Translations under genes and position numbers: made by a program | Part shown: positions 16,655-24,819 of the stretch, one piece after another | Layout of the letters: each line of letters opens with the position of its first letter | Numbering within the stretch: position 1 is the first letter of the stretch | The notes under the pieces: model-generated | Seen by the model: the letters and a program-made list of their open reading frames with translations, nothing else | What the model was told of the DNA's origin: nothing | Database searches by the model: none | Origin: Polyangium spumosum | GTDB taxonomy: Bacteria; Myxococcota_A; Polyangia; Polyangiales; Polyangiaceae | Direction: 5' to 3' | NCBI RefSeq assembly: GCF_009649845.1 | Contig: NZ_WJIE01000013.1 | Span: forward strand, 124,001 to 188,000 | DNA length: 64,000 nucleotides

Positions 16655-18910
16655 TCAGCCGCCGCCGACGAGCTCCTTCCGCGCCGCCACCACCCAATCC
16701 CGCGCCTCCCACCCGCGCTCTTTTGCCATCTCCGCCGGGACCGGCCGATAGAGCGCCGTCGCTGTCACCGTCGCGCCCGGACAACCCGCCGGCAGCTCGA
16801 ACGCATGTGCGCTCGTGACCGGCGAGAGCGGCGGGAGCCTGCTGTCGCTCGCCATGTCCACCGCGCGATGATGCGGAGCGGACCGCTTTCCCTCCGCGTC
16901 CACGAGCACCCGCGCGAACGTTTGTCCCGGGGCCCCCGCGAGCGCCGTCGAATTCGCGCCGTCCAGGAGCTCCGCCGCGAGCGCGTCGCCGAGGAAGACC
17001 CGATCCCCCGGCATCACCGCCGCCGCGCCCTCCGCCACGATGTGCCCGTTCTCCGCGGAGAGCACCTTCAGCTCGGCCACCGGCAGGCGAATCGGGATTC
17101 CCTTGTCCGCCGGCGAGAGCGCCGGATTCGCGAAGAACCCGATCCCCGGGTAATCCAGGAAGCTCCCCGTCTCCCGCACCACCCGCAAGACCTGCCCCGC
17201 CTGTGCGCGCGCCGCGCCCTCCGGCCAGGCCCATGACGTCCCCGCGACGGTCACGCCTTGCCCGACGACGCCCTCCGCCCACGCGCCGCCCACGTCCGGC
17301 ACCGTCGGCCCCGCCTTCGCCAGGAGCACCTCCCCGCAGGCCTCCGCGCGAATGACCAGCACGAGGGCTCGCATCGGCTCGCCCGTCGGCAATGCGTGCC
17401 CGCACCCCTGGTTCGAGAGGGTCACCACCACGTCGATCACGCTCCCCATCACCTTCGCCGTCATCCACATGCCGAGCGAGAGGTCGAGGAGCCGCGGCGT
17501 CCCGGAGAGCGGCCCTCGAAATGCGTGCGACCGGATCTGCTCCGGCGGACGCACGAACCCGAACGTGATGCCGCCGTTTTTCGGGGTCGTCTTGTCCAGC
17601 GTGTTCCAGAGCCCCTCGTTCGGCGGCATGTGGCAATGCTGGCAGGGCGCGCCGATCTCGGCATAGGGGCTCTCGGACCACTCCGCGAACGTGGAGTGCA
17701 CGGGCAGGCCGCCCGGGAAACGTGAAGGGTCTACCGATTGACCCGGCAGGAGCGCCGGCTGCGAGAGCTCGTGGCAACCCGCGCAGAACGTCGCCTCCGA
17801 GAACTTCGGCTGATAACTGCCGCCCATGAACGGGTTCGGCACGTCCGGCAGCGGGCCGAACATCACCTGCCGCAGTTTTCCGAGGGGATCGTCCGAGACC
17901 TTCTCGCTCGGCCGTTGCAAGACGAGCCGCCCCGCCGTCCCCGGGGGCTTTTCGAGGTCGATGTCCCGCACCTTGTGGCACGTGTCGCAGTGGTTTCCAT
18001 GCTCGAACGCGATCCCCGTCGCCTCCAGCAGATCCCGGCCGCCGGCCTTCCCGTTGATGCCCGCGGCGTGGCAATCGGCGCACGCGCCGAACGCCGTCGG
18101 CCTCTCGGCCGGAGGCAAGGCCGGGTCGTCACACGCGAGCGCGCCCTTCGCCCCACAACCGTTGAGGTCCGGCAAGACCCCGCCGCCGAGATAACAACGC
18201 GGCGCCGTCTCCATCATCGATCCCGGCACCCGCCCCGCGCGCCACGCCCCGCCCGCCGCCGCGCACGAGCCCGCGTCCGCGTGCGCGCGCGTCGTCCCCG
18301 CATAGAGGTCCTGCACGAGCGGATCCCGCGTCGCTCTCGCGTGCGCCGATTGCTGGAATTGCGCGACCAGCGTCGTGTGGCAATGGCCGCAGACGGCGGT
18401 CGTCGCGTCTTTCGCCTCGTCGCCCACGCCCGGCGGACCGAACGGGTAGTCGGTGTTGTCCGGCGGCGCGGCCTCGCGCAGGACGAGCTCGATCGGCGCT
18501 TCGGGGAGCACGTCGAGCTCGATCCCCGCGCTCCGGTAGCCCTCCTTCGCCGCCACGACCGTGGGCGCGCCCGGGATGTCCGTCGAGAGCTCGATCATAA
18601 AAGCACCGTCGGGCCCCGTCACGAGCGCGGGCGCGCCGCCGCCTTGCATCACGATCGCGCCGGGCACGGGCGCCTCGCCGTCCGTCACCACGCCCGTCAC
18701 CGTGAACAGCTCGGGCAGCGCGCCCCCCGCGCCCGTCGACGCTCCGATCGACGCGACAGAGGACGACGACGACACGACGGCGCCGCCTTGCCCGCCTGCG
18801 CCGCCCGCGCCCGCGGGTTCGTCGCCGCCGCAGCCGACGAGCAGCCGGGTCGCGGCCGTGATCACGAACGAGGCGGAAGCGAGACGCGCGTGTTTGCCGG
18901 GACCCCACAT
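16655..18910 (-). CDS. Five-haem c-type cytochrome lipoprotein
   Basis: About 751 residues from ATG 18910 (ATG 18928 also possible). The signal ends in a lipobox, LLVGC27, followed by a Gly/Ala/Ser linker. A carboxypeptidase-regulatory-like domain comes first ('VTGVVTDGEAPVPGAIVMQGGG'), then five CxxCH haem sites: CGHCH, CADCH, CDTCH, CAGCH and CQHCH, and a beta-rich C-terminus. This resembles periplasmic or outer-membrane multihaem cytochromes of the NapC/c554-like kind; the electron partner is unknown. The coding frame stays open far upstream but that part is antisense to the trehalose phosphatase gene. Confidence 0.85.
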   Translation of the reverse strand: MWGPGKHARLASASFVITAATRLLVGCGGDEPAGAGGAGGQGGAVVSSSSSVASIGASTGAGGALPELFTVTGVVTDGEAPVPGAIVMQGGGAPALVTGPDGAFMIELSTDIPGAPTVVAAKEGYRSAGIELDVLPEAPIELVLREAAPPDNTDYPFGPPGVGDEAKDATTAVCGHCHTTLVAQFQQSAHARATRDPLVQDLYAGTTRAHADAGSCAAAGGAWRAGRVPGSMMETAPRCYLGGGVLPDLNGCGAKGALACDDPALPPAERPTAFGACADCHAAGINGKAGGRDLLEATGIAFEHGNHCDTCHKVRDIDLEKPPGTAGRLVLQRPSEKVSDDPLGKLRQVMFGPLPDVPNPFMGGSYQPKFSEATFCAGCHELSQPALLPGQSVDPSRFPGGLPVHSTFAEWSESPYAEIGAPCQHCHMPPNEGLWNTLDKTTPKNGGITFGFVRPPEQIRSHAFRGPLSGTPRLLDLSLGMWMTAKVMGSVIDVVVTLSNQGCGHALPTGEPMRALVLVIRAEACGEVLLAKAGPTVPDVGGAWAEGVVGQGVTVAGTSWAWPEGAARAQAGQVLRVVRETGSFLDYPGIGFFANPALSPADKGIPIRLPVAELKVLSAENGHIVAEGAAAVMPGDRVFLGDALAAELLDGANSTALAGAPGQTFARVLVDAEGKRSAPHHRAVDMASDSRLPPLSPVTSAHAFELPAGCPGATVTATALYRPVPAEMAKERGWEARDWVVAARKELVGGG

Positions 18911-19828: not shown

Positions 19829-20398
19829 TTACTGACCGAGAAGCGTCTTGATCTCCTCGGCGATCTTCTCTTCTTCACCCTCGCCGTAGCCGGCGTGGAT
19901 GTGGCGGACCGTGCCCGTCTTGTCGACGATGAACGCGGTCGGCATCTTGGGCGGGCTGTAGGCCTTCGCCGCGCTCTTGTCCTTGTCCCAGACGACGGAG
20001 AACTTCACGCCCGTCGCCTTGACGAACTCCTCGAGCTTGGCCTTGTCCGTGTCCTCCTCGTCGACGCTCACCGCGATGACGCTGAGGTCGCCGCCGAACT
20101 GATCGACGAGCTCCTGGTACTTCGGGAACGACTTCTTGCAGGGGCCGCAGTACGTCGCCCAGAAGTCGATGATGGTGACCTTCCCGTTCGCTTCCTTCAC
20201 GCTCTTCGGGCCCTCGCCCGTGACCGCCTCGGCGGTGAACTCGGGCGCCGGCTGCCCGACGAGGCCGCCCTCGGCGCCTCCGGTCTCTGCACCGCCGCCC
20301 GACGCGGCGCCGCCGCCGCACGCGGCGAGGGTGAGCGAGAGGGCCGCGCCCATGACGAGCGCGCTCAGGGTGCGGACAAAGGACGATCTCGAGCTCAT
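19829..20398 (-). CDS. TlpA/ResA-like thioredoxin lipoprotein
   Basis: 189 residues. Lipobox LAAC27, a Gly/Ala-rich tether, then a thioredoxin-fold domain with FWATYCGPCKKS (active CGPC at 84-87) and cis-Pro loop 'MPTAFIVD'. It is a periplasmic thiol-disulfide reductase of the AhpC-TSA/Redoxin type, used in cytochrome c maturation or in reducing extracytoplasmic proteins. It diverges from the lipoprotein/DUF4266/DUF3570 operon, a context in which TlpA-like proteins often occur. An interchange with the nearby CxxCH lipoproteins is plausible but inferred. Confidence 0.88.
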   Translation of the reverse strand: MSSRSSFVRTLSALVMGAALSLTLAACGGGAASGGGAETGGAEGGLVGQPAPEFTAEAVTGEGPKSVKEANGKVTIIDFWATYCGPCKKSFPKYQELVDQFGGDLSVIAVSVDEEDTDKAKLEEFVKATGVKFSVVWDKDKSAAKAYSPPKMPTAFIVDKTGTVRHIHAGYGEGEEEKIAEEIKTLLGQ

Positions 20399-20516: not shown

Positions 20517-21119
20517 ATGACCGCGAGAACCTCGCCCAGGGTACGGTCGGGCCGCACCCTTCGCGCCGCCCTCGCCCTGATCCCCGCCCTCGCGTTCGCC
20601 GCGTTTGCAGGTTGTCAGGTCGACGTGGGTGACCAGTTGTGCACCGAGCAGTCCATCGTCAACGACAAGGACGACGACTGCCCCTACGGCCCGCCGGGAG
20701 GTCCCAAGGTCCAGGAGACCGGCTGCCCCGAGATCCAGGTCCTCGACCCGTCGGAGTGCACGACGGCGCCGAGCTGGCAAGACGTCTTCACGATCCTCAC
20801 CGGCCCCCAGGCCGGCTGCACCATCAACGGCTGCCACGGCGCGGCCCCCGGCGCGCGTGGCATCTACCTCGACGCCGCCAACTCCGACACGTTTTACGAC
20901 GAGCTCAAGGGGTACTCGGGCTCGCAGGGGTATCCCTACCTCAACGAGGAGGACCCCTCGCGCTCCTGGATCCTCTGCAACCTCCGCGGCACCCCCGGCG
21001 GCGGCGCGCCCATGCCGCCGCCGAGTGGCCTCACCGACGCGGACTACGCCGTCGTCGAGGCGTGGGCCCAGTGCGGCCTGCGCCGGACGGGCGGAGGCGG
21101 CGGGGACGCGGGGCCCTAG
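20517..21119 (+). CDS. Lipoprotein with C-x4-CH motif
   Basis: 200 residues. Basic N-terminus, hydrophobic LIPALAFAAF and lipobox AGC33. The mature part has 'CTINGCHG' (C101, C106-H107), an extended C-x4-CH haem-type motif followed by 'LDAAN', as in the cytochrome-like lipoproteins common in myxobacteria. 'MPPPSGLTDADYAVVEAWAQCG' near the end is a typical cytochrome-c-like C-terminus (Met ligand followed by a helix). Whether the C-x4-CH site really carries haem is unproven. First gene of a five-gene run. Confidence 0.75.
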   Translation: MTARTSPRVRSGRTLRAALALIPALAFAAFAGCQVDVGDQLCTEQSIVNDKDDDCPYGPPGGPKVQETGCPEIQVLDPSECTTAPSWQDVFTILTGPQAGCTINGCHGAAPGARGIYLDAANSDTFYDELKGYSGSQGYPYLNEEDPSRSWILCNLRGTPGGGAPMPPPSGLTDADYAVVEAWAQCGLRRTGGGGGDAGP

Positions 21120-21180
21120 GAAGAATCTTGACGCGGGGCGAGAAAAACCCCGTTATACGAGTGAAATCGGAGTTTCCGCG

Positions 21181-21435
21181 ATGATGAACGACGACAGCTC
21201 TGCCTCGCTCCCCGCGCGCGTCGGTCGCGCTCTTCTCGTGGTCCTCGTGCTCGGCGGCGGCCTCTTCGCGAGCACCGGGTGTGCGCCCGTCGCGCCGTAC
21301 GAGCGCGGCAAGCTCGCGCATCCGACGATGTCGGCGGCCGACATGGCCGGGTTCGGCGAGTCGCACCTGCGCGCCATCACCGAGGGCGCCGTCGGGGGCA
21401 GCGGCGGCACGGGGAGCGGCTGCGGCTGCAACTGA
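21181..21435 (+). CDS. DUF4266 lipoprotein
   Basis: 84 residues. Signal with lipobox STGC34, then 'APYERGKLAHPTMSAADM' and the Gly-rich tail ending GSGCGCN, the signature of DUF4266. The family is nearly always next to DUF3570, as here, and often near thioredoxin-like proteins. Function is unknown; the conserved terminal cysteines suggest metal, thiol or cofactor chemistry at the membrane. ATG 21181 and ATG 21184 are equivalent starts. Confidence 0.88.
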   Translation: MMNDDSSASLPARVGRALLVVLVLGGGLFASTGCAPVAPYERGKLAHPTMSAADMAGFGESHLRAITEGAVGGSGGTGSGCGCN

Positions 21436-21515
21436 TTTCCTCCTTCCTCCCTCCGAAGGTCGCCATCTTGTCGGATCCTTTTTCTCGAGGACGGGGCTAT
21501 CGTGGCCGCCGCGTG

Positions 21516-23711
21516 ATGCGCCGCCTCGCACAAGCCCTCCTCGCCCCGCTCGTCGCCGCCGCGCTCCTCCTCGCTCCCGCGCTCGCGAGCGCGGCGCCCA
21601 ACGACGAGGAGGTCGAGGTCCTCGTCCAGACGGTGCTCGAGGCGAGCTACAAGGAAGGCAGATACAAGGAGGCGCTCGACACGCTCAACCTGGCGAAACA
21701 AGCGTGCGCCAAGAGGAGCTCTTGCAGCTCCAAGGTCCGCGCCAAGCTCTACGTCGCGCTCGGCACCGTGCTCGCCGGCGGCATGAAGAAGCCTGGCGAC
21801 GCGAAGGCCGCCTTCGCCACGGCGATCAAGGAAGACCCGACGATCGCCCTCTTCCCCGACTACACCTCGCCCGAGATCGAGAAGGCGTGGAGCGACGCGC
21901 GCGCCGGCGGCTCGCCGAGCGGCGGCAACCAGCAGACGAAAGAGGCCAAGGCCGCCGCCGCTGCGTCGGGAGGCAGCGGCAAGCTCAAGGCCACGTACGA
22001 AGGCCAGCGCCCCGCGCGCGGGTGGCGCACGGGCGAGGGCTGGTTCTACTACGACCAGGCGATCAAGGCCGAGAAAGAGCGCGAGTGGCTCGACTGCGCC
22101 GGGTACGGGAGGGCCTCGTACGAGGCCGAGGATCGCACCTCGACGTTGTTCCTCGTCGCCTCGTGTGAGGCGCGCGCGGGCCTCTGGGTCGAGGCCGTCA
22201 GCGACTACGAGGCCACGGCCGAGGCCGCGTCGCGCAAGAACATCCGCAAGACGGCGGCGCAGGCGCGGGCGCGCGCCGACGAGCTGCGCGCCAAGATCCC
22301 GAAGATCGTCCTGCAGAAGCCCGCGAACGCGACCGACCTCAAGGTCCGCTTGAACGGCGTCGAGCTCGGCGAGGAGCAGCTCGGCGCCGAGATCCTCGTC
22401 AACCCCGGCGAACGCACGATCGTCGCGACGGGCAAGGTGAACGGCGCCGAGCAGTCCTTCGAGCAGCGGGTGAACGTCGGCGAAGGCGAGACGGCCACGG
22501 TCGAGATCAAGCTCGTGCCGAAGGGCAAGGCGATCGACCGCGCGCTCGTCAAGTGCATGCAGGACGCGCAGACGCAGGACCAGTTCGACGACTGCATCTC
22601 GAAGGCCCGCAAGCTGCCGCTGAACATGAAGTTCGGCCTGGAGTTCTCGGCGTATCACGACTCGGACAAGGTCGACGTCGTGAGCCCGACCTTCTTCTTC
22701 AACGTCGAGAACCCGACGAGCGGCTGGGGTTTTGGTGGCTCGTTCCTCGTCGACGTGGTGACGGCCGCGTCGACGGACATCGTGGCCACGGCCTCGCCGC
22801 GCTGGACCGAGCAGCGTTACGTGCCTGCGCTCGGCGGTCACAAGAAGTTCGGCGACGTCGACGTGAACCTGCATGCGGCGATGTCGATCGAGCCCGACTA
22901 CCTGGCGACGAGCGTGGGCACCACGGTCGCGATCGACCTGAAGCAGAAGACGGTCACGCCGAGCTTGAGCTACGACTTCTCGTACGACATCGCGGGCCGA
23001 TCGGGCACGAGCTACGAGGTGTTCTCGCGGCGGATCCAGCGCCACGCGCTCGACCTCGCCTCCTCGTTCGTCCTCGACAAGAACTCCGTCCTGACGACGA
23101 ACTTCAGCCTGGTGGTCGAGTCGGGTGACAGCTCGAAGCCCTACCGCTACATCCCGACGTTCGCGCCGGACATCGCGCCTCGTGTCTTGCCGGGCCAGTC
23201 GCTCGCGACGGTGAACTTCTACCGAAACCCCGAGCGTATTCTCGAGCAGCTCCCGCTGAGCCGTCAGCGCTTCGCGCTCGCCGCCCGTTACGCGCGCCGC
23301 TTCTCCGCGAGCACGCTCCGCGCCGAGGAGCGGCTCTACGCCGATAGCTGGGGCGTGAAGGCCACGACGACGGACCTGCGTTACCTCTACGACGTCGGCA
23401 AGAACATCCGCGTCTGGCCGCATTTCCGCTTCCACGCGCAGACGGGCGCGGCCTTCTGGCAACTCGCGTACGTGGCCGAGCGGACGCCGACGGGCCTGCA
23501 GGTCCCGGCGTTGCGCACGGGCGACCGCGAGCTCGGCGCGCTTCTCGGCGTGACCGGCGGCCTCGGCACGCGTATCGCGTTTGGCGAGGCCAAGAACTGG
23601 GGCCTCGTCGCGAGCGGCGACGTGATCTACACGCGCTTCTTGAACACGCTCTTCATCCTGCAGCGCTTCGGTTATTTCGGCGCGCTGACGCTGGAGGTCG
23701 ACGTCGAATGA
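21516..23711 (+). CDS. TPR-DUF3570 outer-membrane protein
   Basis: 731 residues. Signal peptide ends near ALASA. The periplasmic N-terminal third is TPR-like ('YKEGRYKEALDTLNLAKQACAKRSSC', 'DAKAAFATAIKEDPTIALFP') plus a PEGA-like beta domain ('DLKVRLNGVELGEEQLGAEILVNPGERTIVATG'). From about residue 375 the sequence is alternating amphipathic beta strands, matching DUF3570, predicted to be an outer-membrane beta barrel ('FGLEFSAYHDSDKVDVVSPTFFFNVEN'). DUF3570 is usually about 400 residues, so the N-terminal extension is a fusion. It overlaps the next gene (ATGATGA). Confidence 0.85.
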   Translation: MRRLAQALLAPLVAAALLLAPALASAAPNDEEVEVLVQTVLEASYKEGRYKEALDTLNLAKQACAKRSSCSSKVRAKLYVALGTVLAGGMKKPGDAKAAFATAIKEDPTIALFPDYTSPEIEKAWSDARAGGSPSGGNQQTKEAKAAAAASGGSGKLKATYEGQRPARGWRTGEGWFYYDQAIKAEKEREWLDCAGYGRASYEAEDRTSTLFLVASCEARAGLWVEAVSDYEATAEAASRKNIRKTAAQARARADELRAKIPKIVLQKPANATDLKVRLNGVELGEEQLGAEILVNPGERTIVATGKVNGAEQSFEQRVNVGEGETATVEIKLVPKGKAIDRALVKCMQDAQTQDQFDDCISKARKLPLNMKFGLEFSAYHDSDKVDVVSPTFFFNVENPTSGWGFGGSFLVDVVTAASTDIVATASPRWTEQRYVPALGGHKKFGDVDVNLHAAMSIEPDYLATSVGTTVAIDLKQKTVTPSLSYDFSYDIAGRSGTSYEVFSRRIQRHALDLASSFVLDKNSVLTTNFSLVVESGDSSKPYRYIPTFAPDIAPRVLPGQSLATVNFYRNPERILEQLPLSRQRFALAARYARRFSASTLRAEERLYADSWGVKATTTDLRYLYDVGKNIRVWPHFRFHAQTGAAFWQLAYVAERTPTGLQVPALRTGDRELGALLGVTGGLGTRIAFGEAKNWGLVASGDVIYTRFLNTLFILQRFGYFGALTLEVDVE

Positions 23712-24292
23712 TGACGCCGCGGACCGTGCTCGCCTCGTCGCTCTTCGCCCTCTCGCTCGTCCTCGGCTGCGGCAACCGCGCCGTCGACGAGCGCATCACC
23801 CAGCTCGGCGAGGAGGACCCGAACGTGCCCGTGGGGGAGTTCCACCGCCCGGGGCAGCCCTGCGTGCTCTGCCACGGCGAGTATCTGCGGGAGAACCCGA
23901 TCATGAGCGTCGGCGGGACGATCTACGCGTACCCGACGAAGACCCGCGAGGAGAAGCCGCTGCCCGTCGAGGGCGTGAAGGTGAAGCTCACGGACTCGTT
24001 CGGCGAGCAATTCGAGGTCAGCACGAACTGCGCGGGCAATTTCTTCATCGAAAAGGAGGCGTGGAACCCTGCCTTCCCGCTGCGCGCCGAGATCGAGTAC
24101 CCCGTGCCGGGGGAGCTCGAGAGCACGAAACGCGTGGTGATGTCGACGCGCATCAGCCGCGACGGATCCTGCGCCGGCTGCCATACGGACAACCCGACCC
24201 AGGGTTCGCCGGGGTGGGTCTACTGCGCGGAGACCCAGACCGACCCGCCGTTCCCGCCGCAAAGCCCGTCCTGCGCGGGAGCTGCGAAATGA
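23708..24292 (+). CDS. Two-haem-motif lipoprotein
   Basis: 194 residues. Lipobox VLGC21. Two CxxCH sites, CVLCHG (52-57) and CAGCH (155-159), flank a carboxypeptidase-regulatory-like beta domain ('VEGVKVKLTDSFGEQFEVSTNCAGNFFIEKE'). It is therefore probably a small dihaem lipoprotein of the cell surface or periplasm. The start codons (ATG 23708 or 23711) overlap the stop of the DUF3570 gene, and its TGA overlaps the ATG of the next gene, so expression is coupled. Confidence 0.8.
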   Translation: MMTPRTVLASSLFALSLVLGCGNRAVDERITQLGEEDPNVPVGEFHRPGQPCVLCHGEYLRENPIMSVGGTIYAYPTKTREEKPLPVEGVKVKLTDSFGEQFEVSTNCAGNFFIEKEAWNPAFPLRAEIEYPVPGELESTKRVVMSTRISRDGSCAGCHTDNPTQGSPGWVYCAETQTDPPFPPQSPSCAGAAK

Positions 24293-24819
24293 AGACCGGA
24301 CGTCTTTCGAGCCTCTTTTTGTTCCTCTCCGTCGCAGGTTGCGGGGACCTCGGCCCTGCCGTGAACGAGATCGTCGGTCCGCCCTTCGACCCGGCCGCGT
24401 TCCGCTCGGTCTCGGCGGTCCTCGAGCGCCGCTGCGGGACGCTCGATTGCCACGGCCACGCGGCCCGTCCGCTGCGCATTTATGGCCAGTATGGCCTGCG
24501 CCGCCCCGAGGAGCGGACCTCGCCGAACGTCGAGAACTACGACGAATACTACTCCGGCGGCAAAGAGTCGACGACGCTCGCGGAGCTGGAGGACAACTAC
24601 CGCTCGGTCCTGGCGCTCGAGCCGGAGCTCGTGGCGAAGGTGTACGCGAAGTCGGCGGACCCCGAGGTGCTGTCGATCGTGCGAAAGGCGCGATTGCGCG
24701 AGAAACACAAGGGCGGCCTCTTGTGGAACAAAGGCGACCCCGGGGACGTGTGCCTCGTGAACTGGTTGACGGGGAATACGGATACGACGCAGTGTGAGGT
24801 CGAGCTCGGGCATCCGTAA
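24289..24819 (+). CDS. Lipoprotein with C-x4-CH motif
   Basis: 176 residues. Lipobox VAGC18, then 'RRCGTLDCHGHAARPLRIYGQYGLR' with C49, C54-H55, the same C-x4-CH pattern as the first gene of the operon. 'SVSAVLERRCGTLDCHG' is the usual N-terminal helix before a cytochrome c haem site. Unusually Tyr/Glu-rich middle ('NYDEYYSGGKE'). Last gene of the run; start ATG overlaps the previous stop. Confidence 0.72.
   Translation: MKTGRLSSLFLFLSVAGCGDLGPAVNEIVGPPFDPAAFRSVSAVLERRCGTLDCHGHAARPLRIYGQYGLRRPEERTSPNVENYDEYYSGGKESTTLAELEDNYRSVLALEPELVAKVYAKSADPEVLSIVRKARLREKHKGGLLWNKGDPGDVCLVNWLTGNTDTTQCEVELGHP

Follow-up and report, generated by a model that had tools for sequence, protein, structure and literature searches.

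Haem-motif lipoproteins beside a DUF3570 barrel in Polyangium spumosum: a candidate outer-membrane electron conduit

Porin-cytochrome conduits, MtrCAB and its relatives, pair an outer-membrane barrel with c-haem lipoproteins, and the exporters BcsC, PelB and PgaA are known for their TPR architecture. A further described system is centred on the DUF3570 and DUF4266 families: ApbE is reported to flavinylate a Chlorobium DUF3570 at two [S/T]GA[S/T] sites and DUF2271 as well, and DUF4266 to carry a CXC at its C-terminus and to occur in a thioredoxin/DsbD setting (Meheust 2021, PMC8238504). A locus of the myxobacterium Polyangium spumosum resembles each of these in part. It lies in the 64,000 nucleotides at positions 124,001 to 188,000 of contig NZ_WJIE01000013.1 (hereafter the window; the contig is C13, and C4, C6 and C14 are further contigs of the same genome). 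A preliminary description of the window regarded DUF4266 and DUF3570 as lacking an assigned function, which the published flavinylation of DUF3570 contradicts. The five adjacent genes that it listed, and the divergent TlpA-like gene, are all present:

19829-20398, minus strand: TlpA/ResA-like thioredoxin-fold lipoprotein (CGPC), divergent, with an AhpC/TSA-Redoxin Pfam match
20517-21119, plus strand: p1, CX4CH lipoprotein with an MPP...W tail; motif CTINGCHG
21181-21435, plus strand: DUF4266 small lipoprotein with C-terminus CGCN; PF14086, 49.4 bits against a cut-off of 27
21513-23711, plus strand: TPR-DUF3570 protein, comprising a signal peptide, a TPR-like domain and a predicted outer-membrane beta-barrel; PF12094, 79.8 bits against a cut-off of 25
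22590-23708, plus strand: barrel domain of the preceding protein (residues 360-732, about 16 long strands) in a structure model
23708-24292, plus strand: p4, lipoprotein with two CXXCH motifs (CVLCH, CAGCH) flanking a beta domain
24289-24819, plus strand: p5, CX4CH lipoprotein with an invariant distal His; motif CGTLDCHG

Both domain assignments of the preliminary description stand, with the DUF3570 domain covering residues 418-696 of its protein. In common with the Meheust system (PMC8238504), the window has DUF3570 adjoining DUF4266, a CXC tail and a candidate partner of thioredoxin fold. It differs in that the operon holds no ApbE or DsbD gene, neither flavin site keeps [ST]GA[ST], a TPR domain is fused to DUF3570 and three haem-motif lipoproteins are added. 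We read the locus as a variant of the known DUF3570/DUF4266 redox module in which haem lipoproteins take part and which acts as an outer-membrane electron conduit, a reading to which we give roughly even chances. The module itself is conserved and consists of the DUF3570 barrel with the haem-motif lipoproteins p4 and p5.

This conservation was followed through the order Polyangiales, of the class Polyangia, in a sample of 144 genomes. From the matches listed there 120 loci were fetched, 111 of them centred on DUF3570 and the last nine on DUF4266, so that 121 loci including the window were mapped. DUF4266 is present in 91 of the 144 genomes. The window DUF3570 protein has matches in 69, some via the TPR part alone, p4 in 49 and p5 in 40 (all at E <= 1e-12), and p1 is matched in 15 at E <= 1e-8. 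Downstream of DUF3570, p4 stands in 90 of the 121 loci and p4 together with p5 in 89. A second set of 89, here called module loci, contains those with p4 and p5 of at least 100 bits each anywhere in the locus, and its membership differs from that of the downstream count. The full arrangement of p1, DUF4266, DUF3570, p4, p5 and divergent TlpA is complete in all six loci of the genus, window included, and the P. spumosum genome has three DUF3570-p4-p5 loci, on C13, C4 and C14.

The comparison across Polyangia that the preliminary description proposed shows that the synteny is not unique to this genome: it extends over the Polyangiales and into two more families of the class. Among 377 genomes drawn from the phylum, p5 is matched in 28 at E <= 1e-6, of which 24 belong to the order, three to other orders of the class and one, a weak match, lies farther out. 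Thirteen further loci were fetched because their p5 either came from beyond the order or had no listed DUF3570 near it. Six of these contain DUF3570 (two incomplete) and seven do not, three of the seven (L254-L256) ending at a contig edge beside the module; DUF3570, DUF4266, p4 and p5 are all present in L244-L246, from other orders of the class. A quick IQ-TREE phylogeny of 132 DUF3570 rows, supported by the Shimodaira-Hasegawa-like approximate likelihood ratio test (SH-aLRT) only and rooted on three loci with adjoining ApbE, places all 88 module loci that it holds within one clade of 96 rows (SH-aLRT 95). A literature search by title and abstract, with most subscription papers and all preprints outside its reach, listed no paper on this module, and the names DUF4266 and DUF3570 and their Pfam numbers occur in one of the papers searched.

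The order of the genes is matched by their spacing. DUF3570 and p4 overlap by 4 bp at 23708-23711, and p4 and p5 by 4 bp at 24289-24292. The preliminary description spoke of several overlaps of the ATGA type; these two are real and the only ones, the gaps between p1 and DUF4266 and between DUF4266 and DUF3570 measuring 61 and 77 nt. Across the 89 module loci an NTGA overlap is kept at the DUF3570/p4 junction in 57 and at the p4/p5 junction in 78, and it therefore exceeds chance. This arrangement suggests that DUF3570, p4 and p5 are translated in tight coupling. Scans for promoters and terminators gave no signal above shuffled sequence. As read from the sequence, p1, DUF4266, p4, p5 and the TlpA-like protein have a lipobox-like cysteine, and the N-terminus of DUF3570 looks like an ordinary signal peptide.

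The haem motifs reported earlier, CX4CH in p1 and p5 and a pair of CXXCH in p4, prove invariant in the homologues scored, namely those above a score limit of at least 100 bits for p4 (92 of 106 matches) and at least 60 bits for p5 (104 of 109) and p1 (43 of 51). In p4 both CXXCH motifs, His39 and Met138 are kept in 92 of 92, and His39 and Met138 are possible distal ligands. The motif of p5 is kept in 104 of 104, as are Arg60 and Glu88, with His129 in 103. For p1 the two cysteines and the histidine are found in 43 of 43, with a spacer of four residues in 36 and of five in seven; Met147 is kept in 42 of 43 and Trp164 in all. Class I cytochromes have this pattern, and p1 is probably a mono-haem member of the class with Met147 among its putative ligands. 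The CX4CH spacing has precedent: haem c at such a motif is reported to have been verified by mass in MmcA (PMC11024163), and the motif occurs in cytochrome c3 (PMC10454114). The genome has three matches over the cut-off to the cytochrome-c assembly family PF01578.

None of the window's p1, p4 and p5 reaches the cut-off of a curated cytochrome family, and p1 has no Pfam match. Of 32 p4 members, 29 match Cytochrome_C7 and 24 match Paired_CXXCH, in both cases below the cut-off. Window p4 alone found no match among solved-structure sequences; the profile of its family finds cytochromes, around the second CXXCH only (best E 0.00028). Treating p1 and p5 as one family is unsupported, at a profile-comparison probability of 1.9%. 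Selenocysteine in p4 was likewise discarded: there are 18 matches with an in-frame stop (17 TGA, one TAG), and 11 of the 12 TGA cases inspected out of the 17 are terminal. In L097 (G121:C864), from one fragmented genome, a TGA takes the place of the later of the two cysteines in haem motif 1, which may be an error, decay or recoding; the p4 pieces there each score below 100 bits and are outside the 92 counted. In L114, L116, L117, L121, L122, L251 and L252, p5 is closely followed on the same strand by another, weaker p4-like protein, which is not found in the window.

The outer-membrane barrel predicted for DUF3570 in the preliminary description is borne out by modelling. An AlphaFold2 model of residues 360-732, computed with 61 relatives from named genomes, reaches a mean predicted local distance difference test (pLDDT) of 94.2 and a predicted template-modelling score of 0.88, with about 16 long strands. 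The rows listed by Foldseek and VIA-align are outer-membrane barrels, including OmpG, OccK, FadL, BamA, BcsC, PelB and PgaA, and we are confident that the modelled domain forms such a barrel. Long loops follow the odd-numbered strands in our own count, which is consistent with a periplasmic N-terminus. The flavin-site region falls in the stretch that joins strands 3 and 4 and presumably faces outwards. Sequence searches of solved structures gave nothing of use for DUF3570 or p5, and a reference DUF3570 sought in plasmids had no match. The DUF3570 protein has no MtrB/PioB-family barrel among its Pfam matches at E <= 1; MtrB/PioB chains are also absent among the 50 fold-comparison rows listed, which excludes nothing.

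The fold raises the question of whether the protein is a channel for something other than electrons. The TPR-barrel might be a porin or exporter of a solute or polymer, with the lipoproteins as accessory enzymes acting on the passing substrate. Like BcsC, PelB and PgaA the window protein would place a periplasmic TPR region before a barrel of similar fold, and VIA-align scores are high for BcsC (Z 19.4, root-mean-square deviation 4.2, 297 residues aligned), PelB (Z 19.1, 3.7, 267) and structure 4y25, which we take to be PgaA (Z 18.7, 3.6, 258); Foldseek adds OmpG, OccK/OpdK and FadL. These values are a common signal of barrels, however, because a BamA model exceeds them (Z 22.1), with porins not far behind. 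The likeness to exporters is one of fold alone, with no exporter barrel family among the Pfam matches of the TPR-DUF3570 protein at E <= 1. Nor were polysaccharide genes recognised among the conserved neighbours, where the first 60 residues of 16 representatives were read by eye and 10 proteins were scanned. DUF3570 without TPR is, moreover, the older form on the tree as rooted. We consider the channel explanation unlikely.

On the same tree the TPR fusion is a single change (support for the grouping 75). The N-terminal TPR of the window protein itself is below threshold (TPR_12, 19.5 bits against 30.1); among 18 homologous N-termini, however, 12 are matched by TPR_2 (E <= 0.1), the best at 5.3e-8. 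The fusion goes with p1, which at 100 bits or more occurs in 41 of 50 TPR-fused module loci and in none of the other 39. As p1 is found in both orientations beside DUF3570, its retention would fit selection for keeping it. Within the window's clade of 13 rows, the divergent TlpA-like gene is present in 11 loci.

The wider family was sampled in 80 DUF4266 loci on named contigs, up to 7 kb on each side. DUF3570 is found in 74 and ApbE in eight, so DUF3570/DUF4266 loci devoid of ApbE are not confined to myxobacteria. A TlpA-like gene lies within 1 kb upstream of DUF4266 in 50 of the 80, a hydrazine-synthase-alpha-like propeller occurs in 41, and p4 and p5 exceed the score limits in three. In the named loci that were read, genes for c-type-cytochrome-like proteins adjoin DUF3570/DUF4266. 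The gammaproteobacterial TlpA-DUF4266-DUF3570 clusters share with the window TlpA, a c-type-cytochrome-like gene (in those read) and the usual lack of ApbE; unlike the window they are without p4 and p5 and have propeller and PSD2-like proteins instead. In L167, L203, L221 and others of this group, cytochrome-like, PSD2-like, propeller and SH3/outer-membrane proteins accompany TlpA, DUF4266 and DUF3570.

What, then, has become of the flavin? At the aligned places of the two [S/T]GA[S/T] sites the window DUF3570 reads TAAS and ATAS, site 1 (DVVTAAS) being short of the glycine only. In the alignment, where two of the 121 order rows are gapped, all 5 loci with adjoining ApbE have the site-1 glycine, as do 9 of the 69 other loci on named contigs, and none of the 119 order loci has it; in these the aspartate, the alanine and the serine or threonine are kept in 119 of 119. 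Flavin has likely been lost from DUF3570 of the window type, judging by this pattern. The genome's sole ApbE over the cut-off is on C6, and a profile made from it finds no nearby copy in 120 of the 121 order loci, L089 alone having one, 4.3 kb away. One might instead suppose that flavin is still the carrier, with this single ApbE flavinylating DUF3570 in trans despite the glycine-to-alanine change and the haem lipoproteins as partners. The other site-1 residues are indeed kept, an ApbE exists in a genome where FMN_bind has no match at E <= 0.1, and in another protein tested such a change left flavinylation at about 50% (PMC12052999). Yet the glycine kept in all five loci with adjoining ApbE is missing from all 119 aligned order loci, the second site reads ATAS, and a better substrate is encoded on C14, so that we find this alternative quite improbable.

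The substrate in question is the genome's only DUF2271 match, which retains an intact DAVTGAT flavinylation motif. It belongs to the C14 copy of the module (L088; G000:C14:190230-203330), which has neither TPR nor p1 and carries the DUF2271 lipoprotein and a multicopper oxidase beside DUF3570. The earlier statement that neither ApbE nor DUF2271 is present therefore holds at the locus itself and misleads as regards the wider module, because this paralogue has the flavoprotein and ApbE-less loci are common. Homologues of the C14 DUF2271 occur in 14 loci, with [ST]GA[ST] intact in 10: 12 of the 39 TPR-less module loci, none of the 50 TPR-fused ones and two loci outside the module set. At the score limits used, p1 and DUF2271 are found together in no module locus. 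Since the sister copy has a DUF2271 flavoprotein and no p1, haem and flavin may be exchangeable carriers.

The multicopper oxidase also speaks for a third alternative, in which the module shifts the redox state of iron or copper at the outer membrane for uptake and the CGC of DUF4266 binds or reduces the metal. FoxE, an iron-oxidising protein, is the sole solved-structure match of the p1 profile at E <= 1, and at E 0.15 is not significant. The VIT1 iron transporter was reported in 25 DUF3570 clusters (PMC8238504). The oxidase, however, occurs in only 3 of 201 loci searched, and no metal transporter is seen in the window operon. Metal acquisition thus appears to us a rather remote explanation. 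For the terminal chemistry of the conduit we nonetheless favour, our likeliest guess is redox of a metal (iron).

The thiol branch of the locus involves DUF4266 and the TlpA-like protein. A CGC followed by one residue ends 166 of 166 DUF4266 open reading frames of at least 50 bits, and the window protein has this conserved CXC as CGCN; the 80 named-contig loci had themselves been picked by a pattern containing the CGC tail. The 19829-20398 protein matches AhpC-TSA at E 1.3e-23, the ResA model falls below its cut-off, and PF13899 is not among the 11 Pfam matches listed. DsbD was not recognised in the operon, and no genome-wide search for it was made.

How might the parts work together as a conduit? 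We propose that p1, p4 and p5 are outer-membrane-anchored cytochromes of the c type, and that the periplasmic TPR arm docks the haem lipoproteins and holds p1; the arm is suggested as the docking site because p1 goes with the TPR fusion. From the periplasmic side or the barrel mouth, the haem lipoproteins would relay electrons through or along DUF3570. DUF4266 would be a flexible thiol shuttle, its Gly-rich tail with the CGCN end being reduced by the TlpA-like partner; such a CGC tail can be likened to flexible redox tails. A plainer role for TlpA would be to keep the haem-site cysteines reduced during maturation. Electrons would thereby be exchanged between carriers in the periplasm and a partner on the outer side of the barrel, be it acceptor or donor, in porin-cytochrome fashion with another barrel family. 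The likeness to MtrCAB would consist in an outer-membrane barrel working with c-haem lipoproteins. The window differs from MtrCAB in its Pfam barrel family, in distributing four haem motifs among three small lipoproteins and in having no multihaem plug protein in the operon. A five-CXXCH lipoprotein with a carboxypeptidase-regulatory-like domain is encoded at 16655-18880 on the minus strand, just past the TlpA-like gene, and is restricted to the six genus loci (6 of 6, against 0 of 115 other mapped loci).

Several observations weigh against the conduit. The operon offers no inner-membrane electron donor. A cytochrome family (Cytochrome_CBB3, sub-threshold) is matched by p1 in only 3 of 35 members, at best with E 0.023; of 32 p5 members none matches a Pfam family, the NCBIfam matches are stray ones only, and the structure model of p5 is poor (pLDDT 60). 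The association of p1 with TPR is one evolutionary event, a single independent pair on the tree, and hence not a statistical proof, and weak p1-like matches (28-50 bits) occur in four TPR-less module loci (L094, L095, L108, L123). The window DUF3570 keeps D-x-x-T-A-A-S and may still be flavinylated, given that the glycine-to-alanine change elsewhere only halved flavinylation. Furthermore, p4 and p5 are not downstream of DUF3570 in 32 of the 121 loci, some of them cut by contig ends, DUF4266 is found in only 57 of the 89 module loci, and the genome with its three modules has one DUF4266 over the cut-off, that of the window. In 23 loci a protein of about 620 residues, its start resembling a serine/threonine kinase by eye, is encoded often within a few genes after the module.

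A bolder version of the conduit, which we advance tentatively and rather doubt, would make it a further outer-membrane conduit unrelated to the Mtr-type barrels. The flavins of DUF3570 would have been replaced by four c-haems on three lipoproteins docked by the TPR arm, the CGC tail of DUF4266 would couple TlpA thiol chemistry to the haem chain, and p1 (haem) and DUF2271 (flavin) would be alternative plug-in carriers.

DUF3570 and DUF4266 form a widespread redox module, beside whose barrel haem-motif lipoproteins have become fixed in this lineage. The window module and its C14 sister, with a flavoprotein instead of p1, form a natural pair in which to compare the roles of flavin and haem, and the locus offers a starting point for p5, whose lipoprotein family is here without a Pfam or convincing NCBIfam match. 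If the reading proposed here is true, soil myxobacteria would have an electron conduit in their outer membrane.

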